From IMG/VR virus record IMGVR_UViG_3300021963_000383, positions 1-34,506 of that record: a stretch of 34,506 nucleotides of DNA; one strand, 5' to 3'. How positions within the stretch are numbered: position 1 is the first letter of the stretch; each line of letters starts with the position of its first letter. Both the position numbers and the translations under genes were made by a program. The stretch is from a virus. The notes beneath the pieces are model-generated. The model did no database searches. It was not told the DNA's origin and was given only the letters and a program-made list of their open reading frames with translations. This document shows, one piece after another, positions 2,376 through 10,274 of the stretch.

Positions 2376-4106
2376 TTATTTATATGATGGTGAGAAATAG
2401 TTATATGTTTCTGTTACTTTTGTTGAATTCTGTAATGAATTATAGAACAATACAGGTCCTATTTGCCCATTCCAAAACGTTGTTCTTGCACTATTAGCTC
2501 CAATTGTTAAGAAGTTAGTAGATGATGGTGCAGTAAATGCTGCTGATGTAAATGTTCCAACAGATGTACCATCAACATATACAGTACAAGTTCCACTTGG
2601 TTGGAATGTTGCCGAAATCATATACCAAACATTTGATGATAACGAAGTAGTTAGTTGTGCACTATTACCCAATGTACTACCATAGAATCTTACTCTGTTT
2701 AATGCAGAGTTATCAGTTGATTCGATTGCCAAACCATAAAATCCTGCATAATCAAAAATACGTCTAGATGCTACTCCTAATGTAGTTGTAGGTCTAATCC
2801 ACATATGAATAGTACCTGTGTTGGTATTAAATTGTGCTATACCACCATTGATATTTGTTGTTGTATCTTTATACCAGAATTGGTTTGTACCATTTCCAGT
2901 CCAATACTTTTCTTTTCTACTTGCTCCGTTATTATAAGCAGGGTTTCCACCACTAATACCTGCTGCATTTGAAACACCTGCTGGTCTAACACCTGTATTA
3001 TATCCACTTAAATCTAACCAATCCGCCGTTGCAGTACCCGCAGTAGAAGATGCTTTTGATGGGTCTAAGTACATTCTTAAACCTGCCGATGGAATATATG
3101 GTTGAGTTGTTGTACCTTTATTGTGAGATATTGTACCATTTGCCAAATAAACGTCAGCATTCTCAACATTTACTGTTACAATTTCAATATCTTCATTTAT
3201 GATTGCAATATCATATACTTCAACTTCAACTAAACCATCTGCATCTGTGTAAGTAACAACTTTATCACCTATAAGAACATCTTCAATTGCTTTGAAACGA
3301 TATTTGTTTATTTCAACATCATATACCCAAAGAGGGTGAGTTCCAGTTGCTTTTATCAAACCATCATTTAATTCATAGTATCCACTTGCAAAGTTGAATG
3401 TAATATCACTAACAACAACATCTTGTGCTTCACCATTAGATTCTTCTAACATATGGAATCTCCATTCTAATTGGTCTGAATTAGGGTCCTGGTCTTCATC
3501 AGGCAATCCTGCTGGCACCCACGATTTGATTCTATCACCAACTACTAAATCTTCAACATTTAATTGTGTTCCAGATGCAGTTGTTACCTTTGTTCCAAAT
3601 AATAAACAAAAATCAGGTTGGTTAATTGTGTTGTACACATCTACTGCAAATAATTTTTTTGTAACAGTAGTATTATAATTAGTTGCCGTAGTATTAAAAC
3701 CATCTTCATACTTCATTGATAAAATGGATTCTGCTTCTGAATATGTTGATGCTGCAATAGATGCAGGTGTTACTGGAAACGATGGAGTTGCTCCTAATGT
3801 TGCAGAACCTACTGTAAAGTTTGAATTATCAAATGTTACTGAATAGTTTGCAGCTACACTACCAACTCTTGTTCCATGAGCAGCTCCTGCACTTCCAAAT
3901 GTAAATGTTGCATTTTCAGATGTAGATTCTACAATGTATGTAAAAGTTGGTGGAGTTACAGTTACCGAATCAATTGCAAATGCTCCGATGGAAATTGAAG
4001 TTCCTGCTGATGCGTTTCTAGCATTCAATGATGATTGGTTGGCCCCTCTCGCCGTTCCAGTAGTTGCTCTAAATAGATTTCCTAATGATAAATTATTTTT
4101 TGGCAT
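2376..4106 (-). CDS. Virion adhesin with intein-like Hint domain and LamG-like C-terminus
   Basis: This 576-residue protein has three parts. Residues 1-166 are a beta-rich, Ser/Thr/Ala-rich region, probably the virion-bound part. Residues 167-329 form a Hint (intein/hedgehog) domain: block A starts at Cys167 (CLLFGTKV, then VEDLVVGDRI), block B has the TxxH motif Thr254-His257 (TGTHPLWV), and the end has VENADVYLANG followed by His328-Asn329. No homing endonuclease is present. Residue +1 is Lys330, not Cys, Ser or Thr, so canonical splicing is not expected, whereas N- or C-terminal cleavage remains possible, as in bacterial intein-like domains. Residues about 340-576 resemble a LamG/concanavalin A-like lectin domain (GTIHMWIRP, WYMISATF, TVYVDGTSVG, LTIGAN, WNGQIGPVLFYN). 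The gene starts 11 bases after the glycosyltransferase gene and precedes the sheath gene. The domain calls are firm; the outcome of processing is unknown. Confidence 0.85.
   Translation of the reverse strand: MPKNNLSLGNLFRATTGTARGANQSSLNARNASAGTSISIGAFAIDSVTVTPPTFTYIVESTSENATFTFGSAGAAHGTRVGSVAANYSVTFDNSNFTVGSATLGATPSFPVTPASIAASTYSEAESILSMKYEDGFNTTATNYNTTVTKKLFAVDVYNTINQPDFCLLFGTKVTTASGTQLNVEDLVVGDRIKSWVPAGLPDEDQDPNSDQLEWRFHMLEESNGEAQDVVVSDITFNFASGYYELNDGLIKATGTHPLWVYDVEINKYRFKAIEDVLIGDKVVTYTDADGLVEVEVYDIAIINEDIEIVTVNVENADVYLANGTISHNKGTTTQPYIPSAGLRMYLDPSKASSTAGTATADWLDLSGYNTGVRPAGVSNAAGISGGNPAYNNGASRKEKYWTGNGTNQFWYKDTTTNINGGIAQFNTNTGTIHMWIRPTTTLGVASRRIFDYAGFYGLAIESTDNSALNRVRFYGSTLGNSAQLTTSLSSNVWYMISATFQPSGTCTVYVDGTSVGTFTSAAFTAPSSTNFLTIGANSARTTFWNGQIGPVLFYNSLQNSTKVTETYNYFSPSYK
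3120..3608 (-). other. Hint (intein-like) domain-coding segment, Cys167 to Asn329
   Basis: The segment encodes 163 residues, the size of a mini-intein without endonuclease. Cys167 is the potential N-S acyl-shift residue, Thr254/His257 are the block B residues, and His328-Asn329 are the C-terminal cleavage pair. The next residue is Lys330, which lacks the side-chain nucleophile required for standard protein splicing. Autoprocessing at one or both ends is inferred from the family. Confidence 0.85.
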
Positions 4107-4117
4107 ATTAGTATGTG

Positions 4118-5116
4118 TTATTCTCCGTTATAAATATGTAAAAGTTTTTCTTTCCATACTTGTTTATTTCCAAAGTGCAGTTGCATCCAATCTTTTAGTT
4201 TTTGATGTTCTGCTTTCCTTTCTTCGTAAGTATCGTTACAGAGTTGCTCATAGGTTTCCTTAAAAGTTTCTGCATCTTTTGCTTTATATTTGTAGTCAAG
4301 GGGAATACACCAGTTTTCGTGTAATATCGGTATTTTGCCCCAATCAACTGCTTCAAATATTCCATATCCGAATGGTTCATTTTCAAAACACGAGTGAGAT
4401 ACACCCCAATCAAGTCCGTAGAACCTTTCTTTATATTTGTAATCAAACTTATAAATTTTACTTTTTTCGAATTTGTGTCCATATTTCTTTCGATAATACT
4501 TGTTAAATGTTTCTGAGTTAGTAGATACATATGATTCGAGTCCATCTATGAACTCTACATTCTTTCTACCTTCTGCTCTTGCAGCAAAACCTATTTTTAA
4601 CGATTCCGAAACTTCTTTATTTACTTTAAATTCGTATTTGTTTGGTATTTGATGTAAATTATCCGTTTTATATGGAAAATGATACAATCCTACCCAAACT
4701 TTGTGTTTAATCTTATCAATCATTTCTGATTCATACTCCCAATTCCCATACCAATGTAAGTATTCTTCTTTTTGCATTTGTGCCATTAAAGACACTTTTG
4801 TTAAATTATGAAAAACGATTGAATCAATCTTTTCCAAACTTTGATGAATAGCTCTGGTTGGGGTATAATGACCATGAAGAATATGTATCCGTCTTGCACC
4901 TTCAAATATTTTTAGTATTTCATCTTCCGATGTTTCCCAAATGTGGTCAATTTCAATTGGAAACTCTTCGTAATTTTGAGGTTTGTGTCTGTGGAATAGA
5001 AGAAGTGGCTTCACCTCTAAATGAGGAGCCACTTCCTTTATCCATTCTGTTACCCATATATCAGCACCACTATTGAACCAAGGTCCTCCTGCGGTGGTGT
5101 AGTAAACGTCGTACAT
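4118..5116 (-). CDS. GT-B fold glycosyltransferase (GT4-like)
   Basis: This 332-residue protein resembles retaining GT-B glycosyltransferases. Near the N-terminus are a glycine-rich turn (TTAGGPWFNSG, 7-17) and a histidine-rich ILHGHY segment (79-84). The C-terminal nucleotide-sugar half opens with LKIGFAARAEGRKN (about 173-186), with Arg180 and Lys185 placed like the donor phosphate-binding pair. It then has an E-x7-E motif, ENEPFGYGIFEA (Glu247-Glu255), characteristic of GT4-type enzymes. The ATG follows the S74 fibre stop codon directly (TAAATG), so translation is probably coupled to that fibre. The last codons contain the ATATTTATA element that precedes the Hint adhesin. It may decorate fibres, other virion proteins or host surface glycans; the acceptor cannot be read from sequence. 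Confidence 0.8.
   Translation of the reverse strand: MYDVYYTTAGGPWFNSGADIWVTEWIKEVAPHLEVKPLLLFHRHKPQNYEEFPIEIDHIWETSEDEILKIFEGARRIHILHGHYTPTRAIHQSLEKIDSIVFHNLTKVSLMAQMQKEEYLHWYGNWEYESEMIDKIKHKVWVGLYHFPYKTDNLHQIPNKYEFKVNKEVSESLKIGFAARAEGRKNVEFIDGLESYVSTNSETFNKYYRKKYGHKFEKSKIYKFDYKYKERFYGLDWGVSHSCFENEPFGYGIFEAVDWGKIPILHENWCIPLDYKYKAKDAETFKETYEQLCNDTYEERKAEHQKLKDWMQLHFGNKQVWKEKLLHIYNGE
4129..4137 (-). promoter_or_regulatory. Candidate late-promoter element inside glycosyltransferase 3' end
   Basis: An exact ATATTTATA (gene sense) is embedded in the last codons of the glycosyltransferase gene (encoding HIYNG) and ends 22 bases before the Hint adhesin ATG. Its presence within coding sequence at the usual distance supports function, but the promoter role is inferred. 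Confidence 0.5.
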
Positions 5117-7342
5117 TTATTTAGAACCTATTTGTGCCTTTAATTGGTCTATTTGTGTTTGTTGTTCTTTAATTGCTTCTACCAATAAACCTACCATTTT
5201 AGAATAGTCTAATGCTAAGAAACCATCTTCTCTTTCAATTACTACCTGTGGTAAAACTTGTTGAACTTCTTGTGCGATTAAACCAGTCTTAGGAGTTGAT
5301 TTAGTTACTTCACTTACATCATCATTCCATTCCCAAGTTACACCGTTCAATTGTTTAACTTTTAATACTGCGTTTGAAATAGTTTGAATGTTATTCTTAT
5401 GTCTCTTATCAGATGTAAAGAATGCCGTAATATCACCAGTTGCAGTAATAGTTCCGTTAATCGTTAAGTTACCAAATGTTGGAGTTGCAGTAGTTGCTAC
5501 CGATTGTCCAATTGCAATTGTTGGTGTTGCGTTTTCACCACTATTGTTTGATAATGTTACACCCGTTCCGGCAACTAAACTTGCTACATAATCACCAGTT
5601 GTTTGTGTTGCTAATGCAATGTTTCCACTTGCAGAACCTAAACTTACTTGTGATGAACCTGAAATTACAGTATTTGCATCTAATCTATTTTTAATTGTAG
5701 TATTAATAGATGATGTAAATGCTTCCAAATTAGCAGTTTCAACTTCTAATGCAGTTAATCTTGTAAGTGCAGAGCTACTAAATGCTTCCAAATTAGCAGT
5801 TTCAACTTCTAATGCAGTTAATCTTGTAATTGCACTACCACTTGCAGTTGATAATTGGTCTAATCTACTTGTTTGTGTATTATTGGTTGTATCATTTGAT
5901 GCAGTATAAGAGTTTAATGAACTTAATATACCAATTACTTGTGATGAACCAGATACTAATGTTGTACCGGTTGCAAGTAATGTACCACTTACAACTGCGT
6001 TTGAACCTAATGTGATTAATGTACCCGTATCGGTAATATTTGAGTCAACAATGTGTTCTAAACCACTTCCTTTTGGTAATCTATTAGATGTTAAGTAAGT
6101 TTCATTACCTAAATTATCATACGTTTGTGGTCCTTGTATAAAATGAGATGATGTTATATTTGTCCCATTCCCTCTATGAACCATTATAAATTCATCTTCT
6201 ACTGCATCGTATAAGAATGAACCAGAACCACCGTTTGAACCACTATCTACGATATGAATTCCTGCAAATCTAGCCGATGGAGTGTTTGTATTTAAGGTTA
6301 TAAGTGATGCTCCAATTACTAAATTAGAAGAACTAATGTTTTGAATAGATGAAGAACCCAATACAACAAAATCTTGTGTTACAGTCAATGAACCACTAAC
6401 AGTTTGATTTCCATTAAATGTGTTTGTACTATTTGTTCTCACAAATGTTCCACTAACAGCTTCGTTTGCAGCTACTCTCTGTGATAAAGATGCGGTTGTT
6501 GTATTTAAATTAGCAACTGAAATATTTAAACTTGCAGTCGTTGCTTCTAAATTACTCGTTTCAACTTCTAATGTAGCTAATCTTGTTAATGCAGAACCAC
6601 TAAATGTTTCTAAATTACTCGTTTCAACTTCTAATGCAGTTAATCTTGTTAATGTAGAACCACTAAATGTTTCTAAATTAGCAGTTTCAACTTCTAATGC
6701 AGTTAATCTTGTTAATGCCGAACCACTAAAAGATTCAATATTATTTAATCTATTTACGTGTGAATCGGATGCATTATGAAGTACGGACGATGTACTAATC
6801 AATGAACCCGTAACAGTTGCCAATGCAGTATTTTGAGTTAATTGCGAAGAACTGAATGAGTTTAAAGCGTTTACTGATACATTCGCAGAACCTGTTGCAG
6901 CTTCTAATGCAGTTAATGTTTCTGCACTTAATGATTTTACAACTGTTGTTCCTTCTACAAATTTAATTGAACCAGTTGATATATAAAGGTCTCTCCAAAT
7001 TTTACTTGCAGAACCCAAATCAAATGCGTTAGTTGTTTGCGGGATAAGAGAAGAACTCAAAGATGCTACAACATTTACAGTATCGGAAGTTGCATCACCA
7101 ATTGTAAGTTGTCCACCTAATGATAAGTTACCATCAATTTTTGCATTACCCGTAATATCCAATGATGAACCTGAAATTCCAGCGAATGAACCTTGACTCC
7201 CTGTTCCAGAAGCTCCTAGTGTAATATCACCATTTGCTCCACCAATTTGTAATGTTCCTAAGTCTGTATTTACATACGGTTCTCCGAATGCTAACGAACC
7301 GGATTTTTGTGCGTTCGTACCACGTCTAAATTTAAGTGCCAT
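5117..7342 (-). CDS. Long tail fibre with C-terminal S74 intramolecular chaperone
   Basis: This 741-residue fibre starts with the anchor-like motif MALKFRRGT...GEPYVNTDLGTLQIGG shared with other fibres here. Two blocks of 21-residue coiled-coil repeats (TRLTALEVETANLE type; three copies near 200-270, two near 500-541) flank a beta module at about 315-390. The last 98 residues are a peptidase S74/intramolecular chaperone domain. It begins at Ser644 in SDKRHKNN, with Lys649 five residues on, matching the Ser-Lys dyad of endosialidase-type chaperones. It continues with GVTWEW, TGLIAQEVQQVLPQVV, LDYSKMVGLLVEAIKE and a C-terminal helix. By family knowledge the domain drives trimer folding and then cleaves itself off near Ser644. 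This is the only fibre in the window with this domain. The gene is coupled to the following glycosyltransferase gene. Confidence 0.9.
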   Translation of the reverse strand: MALKFRRGTNAQKSGSLAFGEPYVNTDLGTLQIGGANGDITLGASGTGSQGSFAGISGSSLDITGNAKIDGNLSLGGQLTIGDATSDTVNVVASLSSSLIPQTTNAFDLGSASKIWRDLYISTGSIKFVEGTTVVKSLSAETLTALEAATGSANVSVNALNSFSSSQLTQNTALATVTGSLISTSSVLHNASDSHVNRLNNIESFSGSALTRLTALEVETANLETFSGSTLTRLTALEVETSNLETFSGSALTRLATLEVETSNLEATTASLNISVANLNTTTASLSQRVAANEAVSGTFVRTNSTNTFNGNQTVSGSLTVTQDFVVLGSSSIQNISSSNLVIGASLITLNTNTPSARFAGIHIVDSGSNGGSGSFLYDAVEDEFIMVHRGNGTNITSSHFIQGPQTYDNLGNETYLTSNRLPKGSGLEHIVDSNITDTGTLITLGSNAVVSGTLLATGTTLVSGSSQVIGILSSLNSYTASNDTTNNTQTSRLDQLSTASGSAITRLTALEVETANLEAFSSSALTRLTALEVETANLEAFTSSINTTIKNRLDANTVISGSSQVSLGSASGNIALATQTTGDYVASLVAGTGVTLSNNSGENATPTIAIGQSVATTATPTFGNLTINGTITATGDITAFFTSDKRHKNNIQTISNAVLKVKQLNGVTWEWNDDVSEVTKSTPKTGLIAQEVQQVLPQVVIEREDGFLALDYSKMVGLLVEAIKEQQTQIDQLKAQIGSK
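5120..5413 (-). other. Peptidase S74 / intramolecular chaperone domain
   Basis: The segment encodes residues 644-741 of the fibre. Ser644 and Lys649 (SDKRHK) have the spacing of the catalytic dyad of endosialidase-type autochaperones. The IAQEVQ and VEAIKE segments are also family hallmarks. Cleavage would give a mature fibre ending at about residue 643 or 644. Confidence 0.88.
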
Positions 7343-7403: not shown

Positions 7404-10274
7404 CTACACATTAAAATCAATATGGAATTCACTTCCACTATATGTGAAATATTGTGCGTAAGATGCTGAATATAATTCTAATGCGTTTAATCTTGTATTA
7501 GCCGATGCGGTAAATTGATTTAGTTTAGTAAATTCCCCTGCTAATCCTGCTCCTACCGAAATAGATGCCGTATATTCCAAATCATCTAATCTAACTTCTG
7601 TTGAAGTTGTATATGAGTTTAACGATGATGTGAATTGATGAATAGAACCAGTTACTTGTGCTAATGTAGTAAATCTACCTTCTAAACTACCCGTTTCCGT
7701 TTCTAATGATAGTAATCTTAAAAGTGCAGAAGAACTAAATGATTGTAAAGATTCAGTTACAACATTTAAAGATGATGTAGTTTGGTATATCTTTTCTAAT
7801 GAAGCAGTTACACTTGCACTAAATAAGTTTAAACTCGAAGTTGATTCGTATATTTTTTCTAATGAGGATGTTACGCTTGAACTAAATGAATTTAAACTTG
7901 CAGTTGATTCATATAACTTTTCTAATGAAGCAGTTACACTTGCACTAAATAAATTTAAACTCGCAGTTGTTTCATATATCTTTCCCAACGAAGCGGTTAC
8001 ACTAGCACTAAATAAATTTAAACTCGCAGTTGCTTCGTATAATTTTTCTAATGAAGCAGTTACACTTGCACTAAATAAATTCAATGAAGAAGTTGATTCG
8101 TATATCTTTTCCAACGAAGCAGTTACGCTTGCACTAAATAAGTTTAACGAAGCAGTTGATTGGTGGATATTCCCTAAATCAGTATTTACCGATTGTGTAT
8201 ATAAGTTTAAACTAGCAGTTGATTCGTATATTTTTTCTAATGAAGCAGTTACACTTGCACTAAACAAATTCAGACTAGCGGTGGATTCATATAATTTTTC
8301 TAATGAAGCAGTTACACTCGCACTAAATAAATTTAAGCTCGCCGTAGTTTGGTTTAAACTAGCAGTTGATTCATATAACTTTTCTAATGAAGCAGTTACA
8401 CTTGCACTAAATAAGTTTAAACTAGCGGTTGTAGAATTTATTTCTGTTAATTGTAATGATGATGTAAATACATTATCCCCACCTGCTACCAATACTTTTG
8501 TTTCTACCCCTTTAACACCTGCTATCCAATAATCGGTAGTAGTATCCCAAATTAACGAACCAGTTGCATTATTAGGTGAAGTTGCATCTTTTACATGAAT
8601 ACCACCATTGGTTGTACCAGTACCATTTAATTCTAAAATATTATCACCAATTTGTACAGTTGTAGAATCTACAATAGTTTGCGTTCCTCTTACATTTAAA
8701 TCACCTAAAATTGTTACATTTGAACCTGTAAATTCAAATGCAGTTTTTAATGATGATGTATATGAATTAATTTCAACTAATGATATATCAACTGATGCAG
8801 ATTTACTTTCTAAATTAGATAATCTACCATTATGTGAACCAGATGTGGTTTCTAAATTAGATAATCTACTTAATGTACTACTACTAAATGTATTTAAAGA
8901 TGCCGTACTTTCATATAATTTTTCTAATGAAGCAGTTACACTAGCACTAAATAAATTTAAACTTGCAGTTGATGATTGTAATGATGCAATAATAGATGAA
9001 CTAATATTACCTACAATATGAATATCATTATCAAATTTAACACTACCACTTATTTCTACTTCAAATCCGGAAGTTGGAATAGTAATTGCACTATTATTTA
9101 ATTTATCGGTATTTACACCAATCTTACCATCACCATATACTGTGATAGATGCCGATTGCCATTGGTTTCCTCCAAATAAATGAAGATGACCATGTGAACC
9201 AGTTGTAGTAGAACCAACATATAAGTCATTTGCAGCATTATATAAATACCCATCACCACCGTATCCAACATTACCTGCTGAATAATTTGATGAGTTTATA
9301 CCCAAATCAATATATGATGAACTTTCGGTTGAAACATCATTCCATAATATCAAATCGGTGGATGATGATGAACCACTACCAAAGTTTTTAATATTTACCT
9401 GTGCATATGAATCTTGCTTAGATGTTTGGAATGTTGCAATATTAAACGAATTTTCACCACTATTATCCACCATCAATCTTTCTGGGAAGAACGATGTTGC
9501 ACTTGTTCCTAAACTAAGTGTTTTAGAAGTAATAAATGAATTTGCGTATGATTTTAAACTTTTTTCAGTATCAAAATATCCAAGTTTATTTATACCACCC
9601 GTTATAGATGCCGTAAAATCATTTAAACTAGCAGTTGATTCATATAACTTTTCTAATGAAGCAGTTACACTAGCACTAAATAAGTTTAAAGATGCCGTAC
9701 TTTCATATAATTTTTCCAATGAAGCAGTTACACTTGCACTAAAATCATTTAAACTTGAAGTTGATTCGTATAGTTTTTCTAATGAAGATGTTACACTTGC
9801 ACTAAATAAGTTTAAACTAGCAGTTGTTTGATATACGGATACTAATTGAGAATTAACAGATTCACTTAATGCCGTAATATTTACATTATTTACACTACCA
9901 CTAATAGATGCCGTAACACTATTTGCATATATAGTATTCCACTTTGCACCTTCTGTTCCTAAATTTAAAGTTCCATTTGTACCAGGAACTAAATTTGTTG
10001 TAAATACACCTGGAACACTAATATTATCACTACCATTATTTCCTAAAAATAAATTACCGGAAATTGCAACATCTCCACTAAAATAAGCATTTGAAGCAGT
10101 TAAATTTCCAGCCAAAGAAAGTGAACCCGAGTTTACACTATCCAATCTTGTCAATGTTATAGGTGTTGTTCCCAACGCCACTTGCAGAGAACCTAAACCT
10201 TTATGCAAGTATATTTCACCATCAACTAATGATACTGAACCCGAACCTCTTCTTATTTGAAATAATGTTGCCAT
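7404..10274 (-). CDS. Giant coiled-coil tail fibre with 13 copies of a 21-residue repeat
   Basis: This 956-residue protein begins with the fibre anchor-type motif MATLFQIRRGSGSVSLVDGEIY. It contains 13 copies of a 21-residue unit (SASVTASLEKLYESTASLNLF type; three heptads). Copies occur as three near residues 150-225, one near 435-460 and nine within about 609-842. Between them are two beta-rich segments (about 245-405 and 500-600). The second carries the LGDLNVRGTQTI...GDNILEL module shared with other fibres. The C-terminus is short and ends SEFHIDFNV. Composition is dominated by Ser, Thr, Ala, Leu and Asn, as in long trimeric fibres. There is no S74 domain. An ATATTTATA element lies 19 bases before the ATG. 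The likely role is a long fibre shaft or spacer; it does not resemble a hydrophobic tape-measure protein. Confidence 0.82.
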   Translation of the reverse strand: MATLFQIRRGSGSVSLVDGEIYLHKGLGSLQVALGTTPITLTRLDSVNSGSLSLAGNLTASNAYFSGDVAISGNLFLGNNGSDNISVPGVFTTNLVPGTNGTLNLGTEGAKWNTIYANSVTASISGSVNNVNITALSESVNSQLVSVYQTTASLNLFSASVTSSLEKLYESTSSLNDFSASVTASLEKLYESTASLNLFSASVTASLEKLYESTASLNDFTASITGGINKLGYFDTEKSLKSYANSFITSKTLSLGTSATSFFPERLMVDNSGENSFNIATFQTSKQDSYAQVNIKNFGSGSSSSTDLILWNDVSTESSSYIDLGINSSNYSAGNVGYGGDGYLYNAANDLYVGSTTTGSHGHLHLFGGNQWQSASITVYGDGKIGVNTDKLNNSAITIPTSGFEVEISGSVKFDNDIHIVGNISSSIIASLQSSTASLNLFSASVTASLEKLYESTASLNTFSSSTLSRLSNLETTSGSHNGRLSNLESKSASVDISLVEINSYTSSLKTAFEFTGSNVTILGDLNVRGTQTIVDSTTVQIGDNILELNGTGTTNGGIHVKDATSPNNATGSLIWDTTTDYWIAGVKGVETKVLVAGGDNVFTSSLQLTEINSTTASLNLFSASVTASLEKLYESTASLNQTTASLNLFSASVTASLEKLYESTASLNLFSASVTASLEKIYESTASLNLYTQSVNTDLGNIHQSTASLNLFSASVTASLEKIYESTSSLNLFSASVTASLEKLYEATASLNLFSASVTASLGKIYETTASLNLFSASVTASLEKLYESTASLNSFSSSVTSSLEKIYESTSSLNLFSASVTASLEKIYQTTSSLNVVTESLQSFSSSALLRLLSLETETGSLEGRFTTLAQVTGSIHQFTSSLNSYTTSTEVRLDDLEYTASISVGAGLAGEFTKLNQFTASANTRLNALELYSASYAQYFTYSGSEFHIDFNV
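7751..8455 (-). repeat. 63-base tandem coding repeats (nine copies)
   Basis: Nine copies of a 63-base unit encode SASVTASLEKLYESTASLNLF-type modules. Copies 63 bases apart start near 7796, 7857, 7920, 7983, 8046 and 8109; after one divergent unit more follow near 8235, 8298 and 8388. Many differ only at a few synonymous positions, which suggests recent duplication or gene conversion. The length is a multiple of three, so gain or loss of copies keeps the frame. Confidence 0.85.
9605..9835 (-). repeat. 63-base tandem coding repeats (three further copies)
   Basis: Three further copies of the same 63-base unit lie in the N-terminal part of the fibre gene, with cores near 9655, 9718 and 9781. A single additional copy lies near 8926. 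They encode the same three-heptad module as the main array. Confidence 0.8.

Follow-up and report, generated by a model that had tools for sequence, protein, structure and literature searches.

The window analysed here, a stretch of viral DNA of 34,506 nucleotides covering positions 1 to 34,506 of IMG/VR record IMGVR_UViG_3300021963_000383, encodes a portal protein, a major head protein and a tail sheath. Since the major head protein matches those of T4-like phages (best 54%), the virus is likely to be a T4-like myovirus. Beside the sheath gene, an ATG-initiated open reading frame (ORF) on the minus strand translates into an adhesin-like protein of 576 amino acids that carries an internal Hint domain resembling bacterial intein-like (BIL) domains, and its features are listed below.

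2376 to 4106, minus strand: ORF of 576 amino acids encoding the adhesin-like protein that contains the Hint domain; the order N-terminal domain, Hint, LamG is identical in 149 of 149 close relatives
3609 to 4106, minus strand: N-terminal domain, residues 1-166, putative virion anchor or N-extein; kept in relatives, with a distant version in FN3-type proteins
3120 to 3608, minus strand: Hint (BIL-like) domain, residues 167-329; profile matches to 2lwy and 6tmm, structure match to 6y75 (Z 18.2)
3606 to 3608, minus strand: Cys167, N-terminal nucleophile, block A; 145/145 in the +1-Lys group (sequences with letters there) and 14/14 in the +1-Thr group
3336 to 3347, minus strand: TGTH, residues 254-257, block B; Thr and His each 155/156 in the +1-Lys group and 14/14 in the +1-Thr group
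3120 to 3125, minus strand: His328-Asn329, C-terminal block; 173/173 distinct sequences
3117 to 3119, minus strand: Lys330, the +1 residue; Lys 159, Thr 14 and Arg 0 among 173 sequences, codons AAA 154 and AAG 16
2379 to 3119, minus strand: C-terminal part, residues 330-576, from the translation
2424 to 2837, minus strand: LamG (Laminin_G_3), residues 424-561, Pfam E 2.8e-16

The residues on which the initial annotation had built its case (Cys167, TGTH, His328-Asn329 and Lys330) are all present in this frame, and the Hint segment of 163 amino acids leaves no room for an endonuclease, as had also been claimed. The same annotation described residues 330-576 as LamG-like; a LamG domain is indeed found there, but LamG proper, as delimited by Pfam, is the shorter segment given above.

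The position of the gene is nearly constant. The tail sheath gene adjoins the Hint gene in 277 of the 278 loci with room for it, and this fixed position supports the view that the product is a virion protein. A gene for a 332-amino-acid protein (window positions 4118-5116, minus strand) adjoins the adhesin gene in 218 of the 219 loci that have room for it; its product had no Pfam, PHROGs or PDB match, and by our reading it contains an E-x7-E stretch resembling some GT-B glycosyltransferases. A homologue of this protein (35% identity) is encoded directly after the gene of a C-terminal Hint protein in LR756508, an uncultured 484-kb phage, so the pairing of the 332-amino-acid gene with Hint proteins may be old. 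The frame at 5117-7342 (minus strand) encodes a tail fibre that carries a chaperone domain, Peptidase_S74, and matches Mtd_N below threshold; Peptidase_S74 is another self-cleaving kind of module, and this fibre gene lies two genes from the Hint adhesin. At 7404-10274 (minus strand) a long protein consists mostly of repeats such as TASLNLFSASVTASLEKLYES. At the limits used, the cultured-phage collection contained no match to the N-terminal domain or to the C-terminal part of the adhesin, and in Flavobacterium phage immuto and Microcystis phage Mel-JY01, which have related head and sheath proteins, no gene annotated as a counterpart lies in the equivalent region.

No PHROGs family was obtained for this protein, the Hint_2 match of the window's sequence fell below the Pfam cut-off (similarly weak Hint_2 matches were seen in 18 of 20 family members), and a PDB search with the sequence alone returned no match, a family profile being needed. 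The profile of the relatives matched the PDB entries 2lwy (E 9.4e-9), 6tmm (E 8.6e-8) and the KlbA intein 2jmz (5.9e-6), and the nearest solved structures by profile are BIL domains without the usual +1 nucleophile. A model of the Hint domain was predicted from 43 sequences (mean pLDDT 82.7, pTM 0.81, most of the core above 90), and its best Foldseek match was BIL2 (6y75, E 1.6e-8), which was also the best match in structural comparison, with an rmsd of 1.9 Å over 138 residues at the Z score listed above. Compared with inteins, BIL domains and hedgehog, as the initial annotation had proposed, the model gave Z scores of 14-18, well above chance; differences in Z below 1 are ties, so that BIL2, inteins and hedgehog are tied and the structural ranking among Hint families is not firm. 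It is the sequence profile that favours a BIL affinity over the other Hint families. The full-length model was poor (mean pLDDT 62.4) and was left out of the fold search, and the fold assignment covers the Hint domain only. In a library of predicted viral structures, phage proteins of Hint, fibronectin and collagen type were among the matches listed. Overall, the earlier placement of a Hint/BIL-like domain inside an adhesin-like protein of the tail region agrees with the profile, the predicted fold and the position by the sheath gene, and the analogy drawn with BIL domains is supported by both the sequence profile and the structure match.

The protein belongs to a large and widespread family of uncultured T4-like phages. 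Relatives were collected from viral contigs by searches with the Hint domain and with the full protein, each yielding the best 80 loci, a sample with little bearing on distant or Hint-less homologues. Relatives that keep Cys, TxxH and His-Asn with a variable +1 residue, for which the initial annotation had suggested a search, were found among the 173 distinct Hint sequences that reach that position (159 with Lys and 14 with Thr), and free loss of Cys167 or Asn329 was not found in them (Cys167 145/145 and 14/14 in the two groups, His-Asn 173/173). Within the Lys group, Lys330 is among the 20 of 191 columns conserved in at least 99% of sequences, together with Cys167, Thr254, His257, His328 and Asn329. 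The median pairwise identity of the Hint domains is 65% and synonymous change is plentiful, while the catalytic residues are nearly always kept, a pattern supporting strong selection on these positions; such conservation is evidence of selection and not of any particular product. Position 311, which we read in our alignment as the site of the intein block F Asp, is Thr or Ser in 157 of the 159 sequences of the Lys group versus Asp in all 14 of the +1-Thr group; this difference separates two clades, and descent alone could account for it.

As regards the history of the +1 residue, the 27 phage rows with Lys group together in a tree of 51 Hint domains (support 96/87); over the whole tree, the Lys label requires at least four changes. 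Of about 20 Elusimicrobiota Hint domains recovered with the same profile, 12 have Lys at +1, and some of these lie in tandem in a single protein; L335 and L344, from Elusimicrobiota genomes, encode tandem Hints with HNKG after each. Searches in the phylum of genome G001 gave 3 matches in 200 genomes, and in its order Hint_2 matches occurred in 100 of 101 genomes, often at least 10 per genome. Thus, the +1 Lys that the initial annotation had singled out as unusual is present, but it is not an oddity of one gene: by these alignments it recurs among BIL-like domains, bacterial ones included, and is fixed in this phage clade. Lys330 is also retained whether the downstream part is LamG, FN3 or a short tail (locus L322). 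Its invariance and its retention across unrelated downstream parts favour a role of Lys330 in the chemistry of the domain itself, be it as the nucleophile or in assisting the cyclisation of Asn. That Arg never occurs at position 330 was also considered as an argument and is weak, a second Lys column, 268, being likewise without Arg.

Other architectures in the family bear on whether the domain is a passenger. In L186 and its relatives, an FN3 domain comes after a related N-terminal domain and Hint. A search with only the N-terminal part of L186, listed in full, yielded 27 loci, and all 27 had a Hint match; the 26 ORFs that run through the Hint all read HNK, and one ORF breaks before it. No Hint-less copy occurs among these 27 loci, a limited sample. 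Presence in 27/27 loci, with HNK in 26/26 through-reading frames, argues that the Hint is integral to the protein, and it is best described as an integral BIL-like, putatively self-processing module rather than a mobile intein. The Hint ORF lies in two frames in L188 and in L287/L381 (contigs 3300008110_001303 and 3300020055_000181), through either sequencing error or a real break. In further versions the Hint is C-terminal, with 2 to 10 residues past His-Asn (L322, L158 and an Erwinia group). L322 has an LCCL domain upstream and ends ten residues past His-Asn (HNKNEENQQSNQ), and L158, the protein of LR756508, has HNKH as its last residues and SASQP in place of TxxH, so that its block B His is lost. 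Pairwise identities of the N-terminal, Hint and C-terminal parts of 129 full-length proteins correlate weakly (r 0.33, 0.18 and 0.24), and some protein pairs have the Hint in common but differ in the LamG part, while others show the reverse. We read the weak correlations as recombination between modules, rate differences being another possible source, and on this reading of the sequences the Hint would mark the junction of a conserved base with adhesins that can be exchanged.

Several known systems can be compared with this domain. The fold, as judged from the predicted model, and the near-invariant Cys167 and TxxH place it in the Hint superfamily. A conserved C-terminal His-Asn is a feature of A-type BIL domains (PMC7765530, which summarises A- and B-type BILs), and it is universal here; the intein kind of +1 nucleophile is lacking in the 159 sequences with Lys, the related Erwinia group having Thr; and as for the usual location of A-type BILs, hypervariable regions in proteins that are not conserved, the modules here vary nearly independently (r = 0.24 for Hint against C-terminal part) at a fixed gene position. 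The BIL domain of Clostridium thermocellum (2lwy), the best profile match, superimposes on the model with Z 17.6 and an rmsd of 1.6 over 132 residues, shares the C-terminal His-Asn and, like the phage +1-Lys group, is without the block F Asp in the alignment; it differs in being part of a cellular bacterial protein and has 20% identity to the phage Hint. The ligation reported for 2lwy proceeds without a side-chain nucleophile and therefore leaves the fixed Lys unexplained. BIL2 of Tetrahymena thermophila (BUBL1 locus; 6y75 and 6tmm) has the Hint fold, the Cys at the start and the Asn at the end (it was crystallised as C1A-N143A) and a position between two folded domains in common with the phage domain, with 18% identity over the aligned part; its host gene is eukaryotic and polyubiquitin-like, in contrast to an adhesin-like protein, and zinc activation has been reported for it. 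According to PMC8616854, BIL2 forms an isopeptide bond with a lysine, an amine-based ligation. The suggested kinship of the phage domain to this isopeptide-forming type is one of likeness in fold and sequence only. A related Hint (25-28% identity) with Cys, TxxH and His-Asn kept occurs in Alexandravirus and Yoloswagvirus, jumbo phages of Erwinia and Dickeya, in proteins whose annotation is virion structural protein or tail fibre, but there it lies near the C-terminus after a collagen-like stretch and the +1 residue is Thr (HNT). Class 1 mini-inteins such as NpuDnaB (4o1r) share the fold (Z 17.9), Cys1, TxxH and His-Asn. Class 1 inteins use Cys, Ser or Thr at +1, whereas the phage domain has Lys330 and, in the loci sampled here, is fixed in its family rather than sporadic. 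The results listed from a paper library covering few subscription journals contained no account of this family of phage adhesins. The BIL chemistry is already known; by these results, a fixed +1 Lys in probable virion adhesins appears to be new.

The best reading of these sequence and model data is active self-processing of the BIL kind, by a Hint module permanently built into a virion adhesin, to which we give a probability of about 0.75, shared among three possible products. Judging by the residues retained and by what is established for the chemistry of this family, Cys167 would attack the carbonyl of Phe166, so that the end of the N-terminal domain, presumably an anchor, becomes a thioester, and Asn329 would cyclise, with release of the C-terminal part of the adhesin at Lys330. 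Water could then resolve the thioester, giving cleavage, or an amine could do so, whether the side chain of Lys330, its freed alpha-amine or a lysine of a neighbouring protein. We infer the activity, the order of steps and the final product from these data; the product itself is decided by what attacks the thioester. The initial annotation expected ordinary splicing to fail with Lys at +1, and the Lys is there, but such failure does not imply the absence of ligation. In the C-terminal versions, where only 2 to 10 residues follow His-Asn, a useful C-terminal ligation is unlikely as a common purpose, while cleavage or N-terminal transfer to another amine fits all architectures. Cleavage only, with cuts at one or both ends that release the LamG part or the Hint without ligation, is a tentative first choice among the products: BIL domains give mainly cleaved products according to a review (PMC7664689) and the C-terminal versions have almost nothing to ligate, yet cleavage by itself does not explain the fixed +1 Lys of this clade, and the adhesin part would be lost from its anchor unless held non-covalently. 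We are more doubtful of lysine-mediated splicing, in which the side-chain amine of Lys330 takes the N-terminal acyl group, an isopeptide bond joins residues 1-166 to the adhesin and the Hint leaves. The invariance of Lys330 in LamG, FN3 and short-tail proteins alike, the lack of any Arg among the 173 sequences, the precedent of BIL2 and the Thr/Ser at position 311 would favour it; against this, the missing Arg is weak evidence, the block F difference may be mere descent between two clades, and the BIL2 lysine is described as that of the next domain and is not stated to be the +1 residue. Less likely still would be crosslinking, in which the N-terminal acyl group passes to a lysine of another virion or host molecule and the anchor becomes covalently fixed. 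BIL2 reportedly couples the domain upstream of it to various substrates, and the C-terminal versions fit such a transfer too, but nothing in the sequence points to a partner.

Against self-processing of any kind stand the loss of the block B His in L158 and the apparent pointlessness of ligation to tails of 2-10 residues. That loss in a distant relative is what an inactive Hint, retained as a structural spacer, would account for, but we consider this improbable for the family, whose catalytic residues stay invariant while the rest diverges. Recent insertion of a mobile intein into an adhesin gene would account for the intein-like fold, and is very hard to reconcile with the lack of an endonuclease, the absence of an empty site among the 27 loci found with the L186 N-terminal query, a +1 residue that is not Cys, Ser or Thr, and one domain order in 149/149 relatives. 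Self-processing thus remains our preferred reading, and the data suggest a phage protein that trims or chemically links itself during assembly of the virus particle.

These phages offer a large number of naturally occurring BIL-like domains that have lysine fixed at +1, within a protein for which a role in host attachment or tail assembly can be guessed. Two questions thereby become open to experiment: can the amine of a side chain stand in for Cys, Ser or Thr when splicing occurs in nature, and do phages rely on self-processing when they build, arm or release adhesins? It seems to us rather unlikely that the side chain of the invariant +1 Lys mediates splicing in the assembly of the adhesin and links the anchor to the lectin-like part by an isopeptide bond for virion maturation; if true, it would represent a +1-Lys variant of protein splicing in the maturation of virions.
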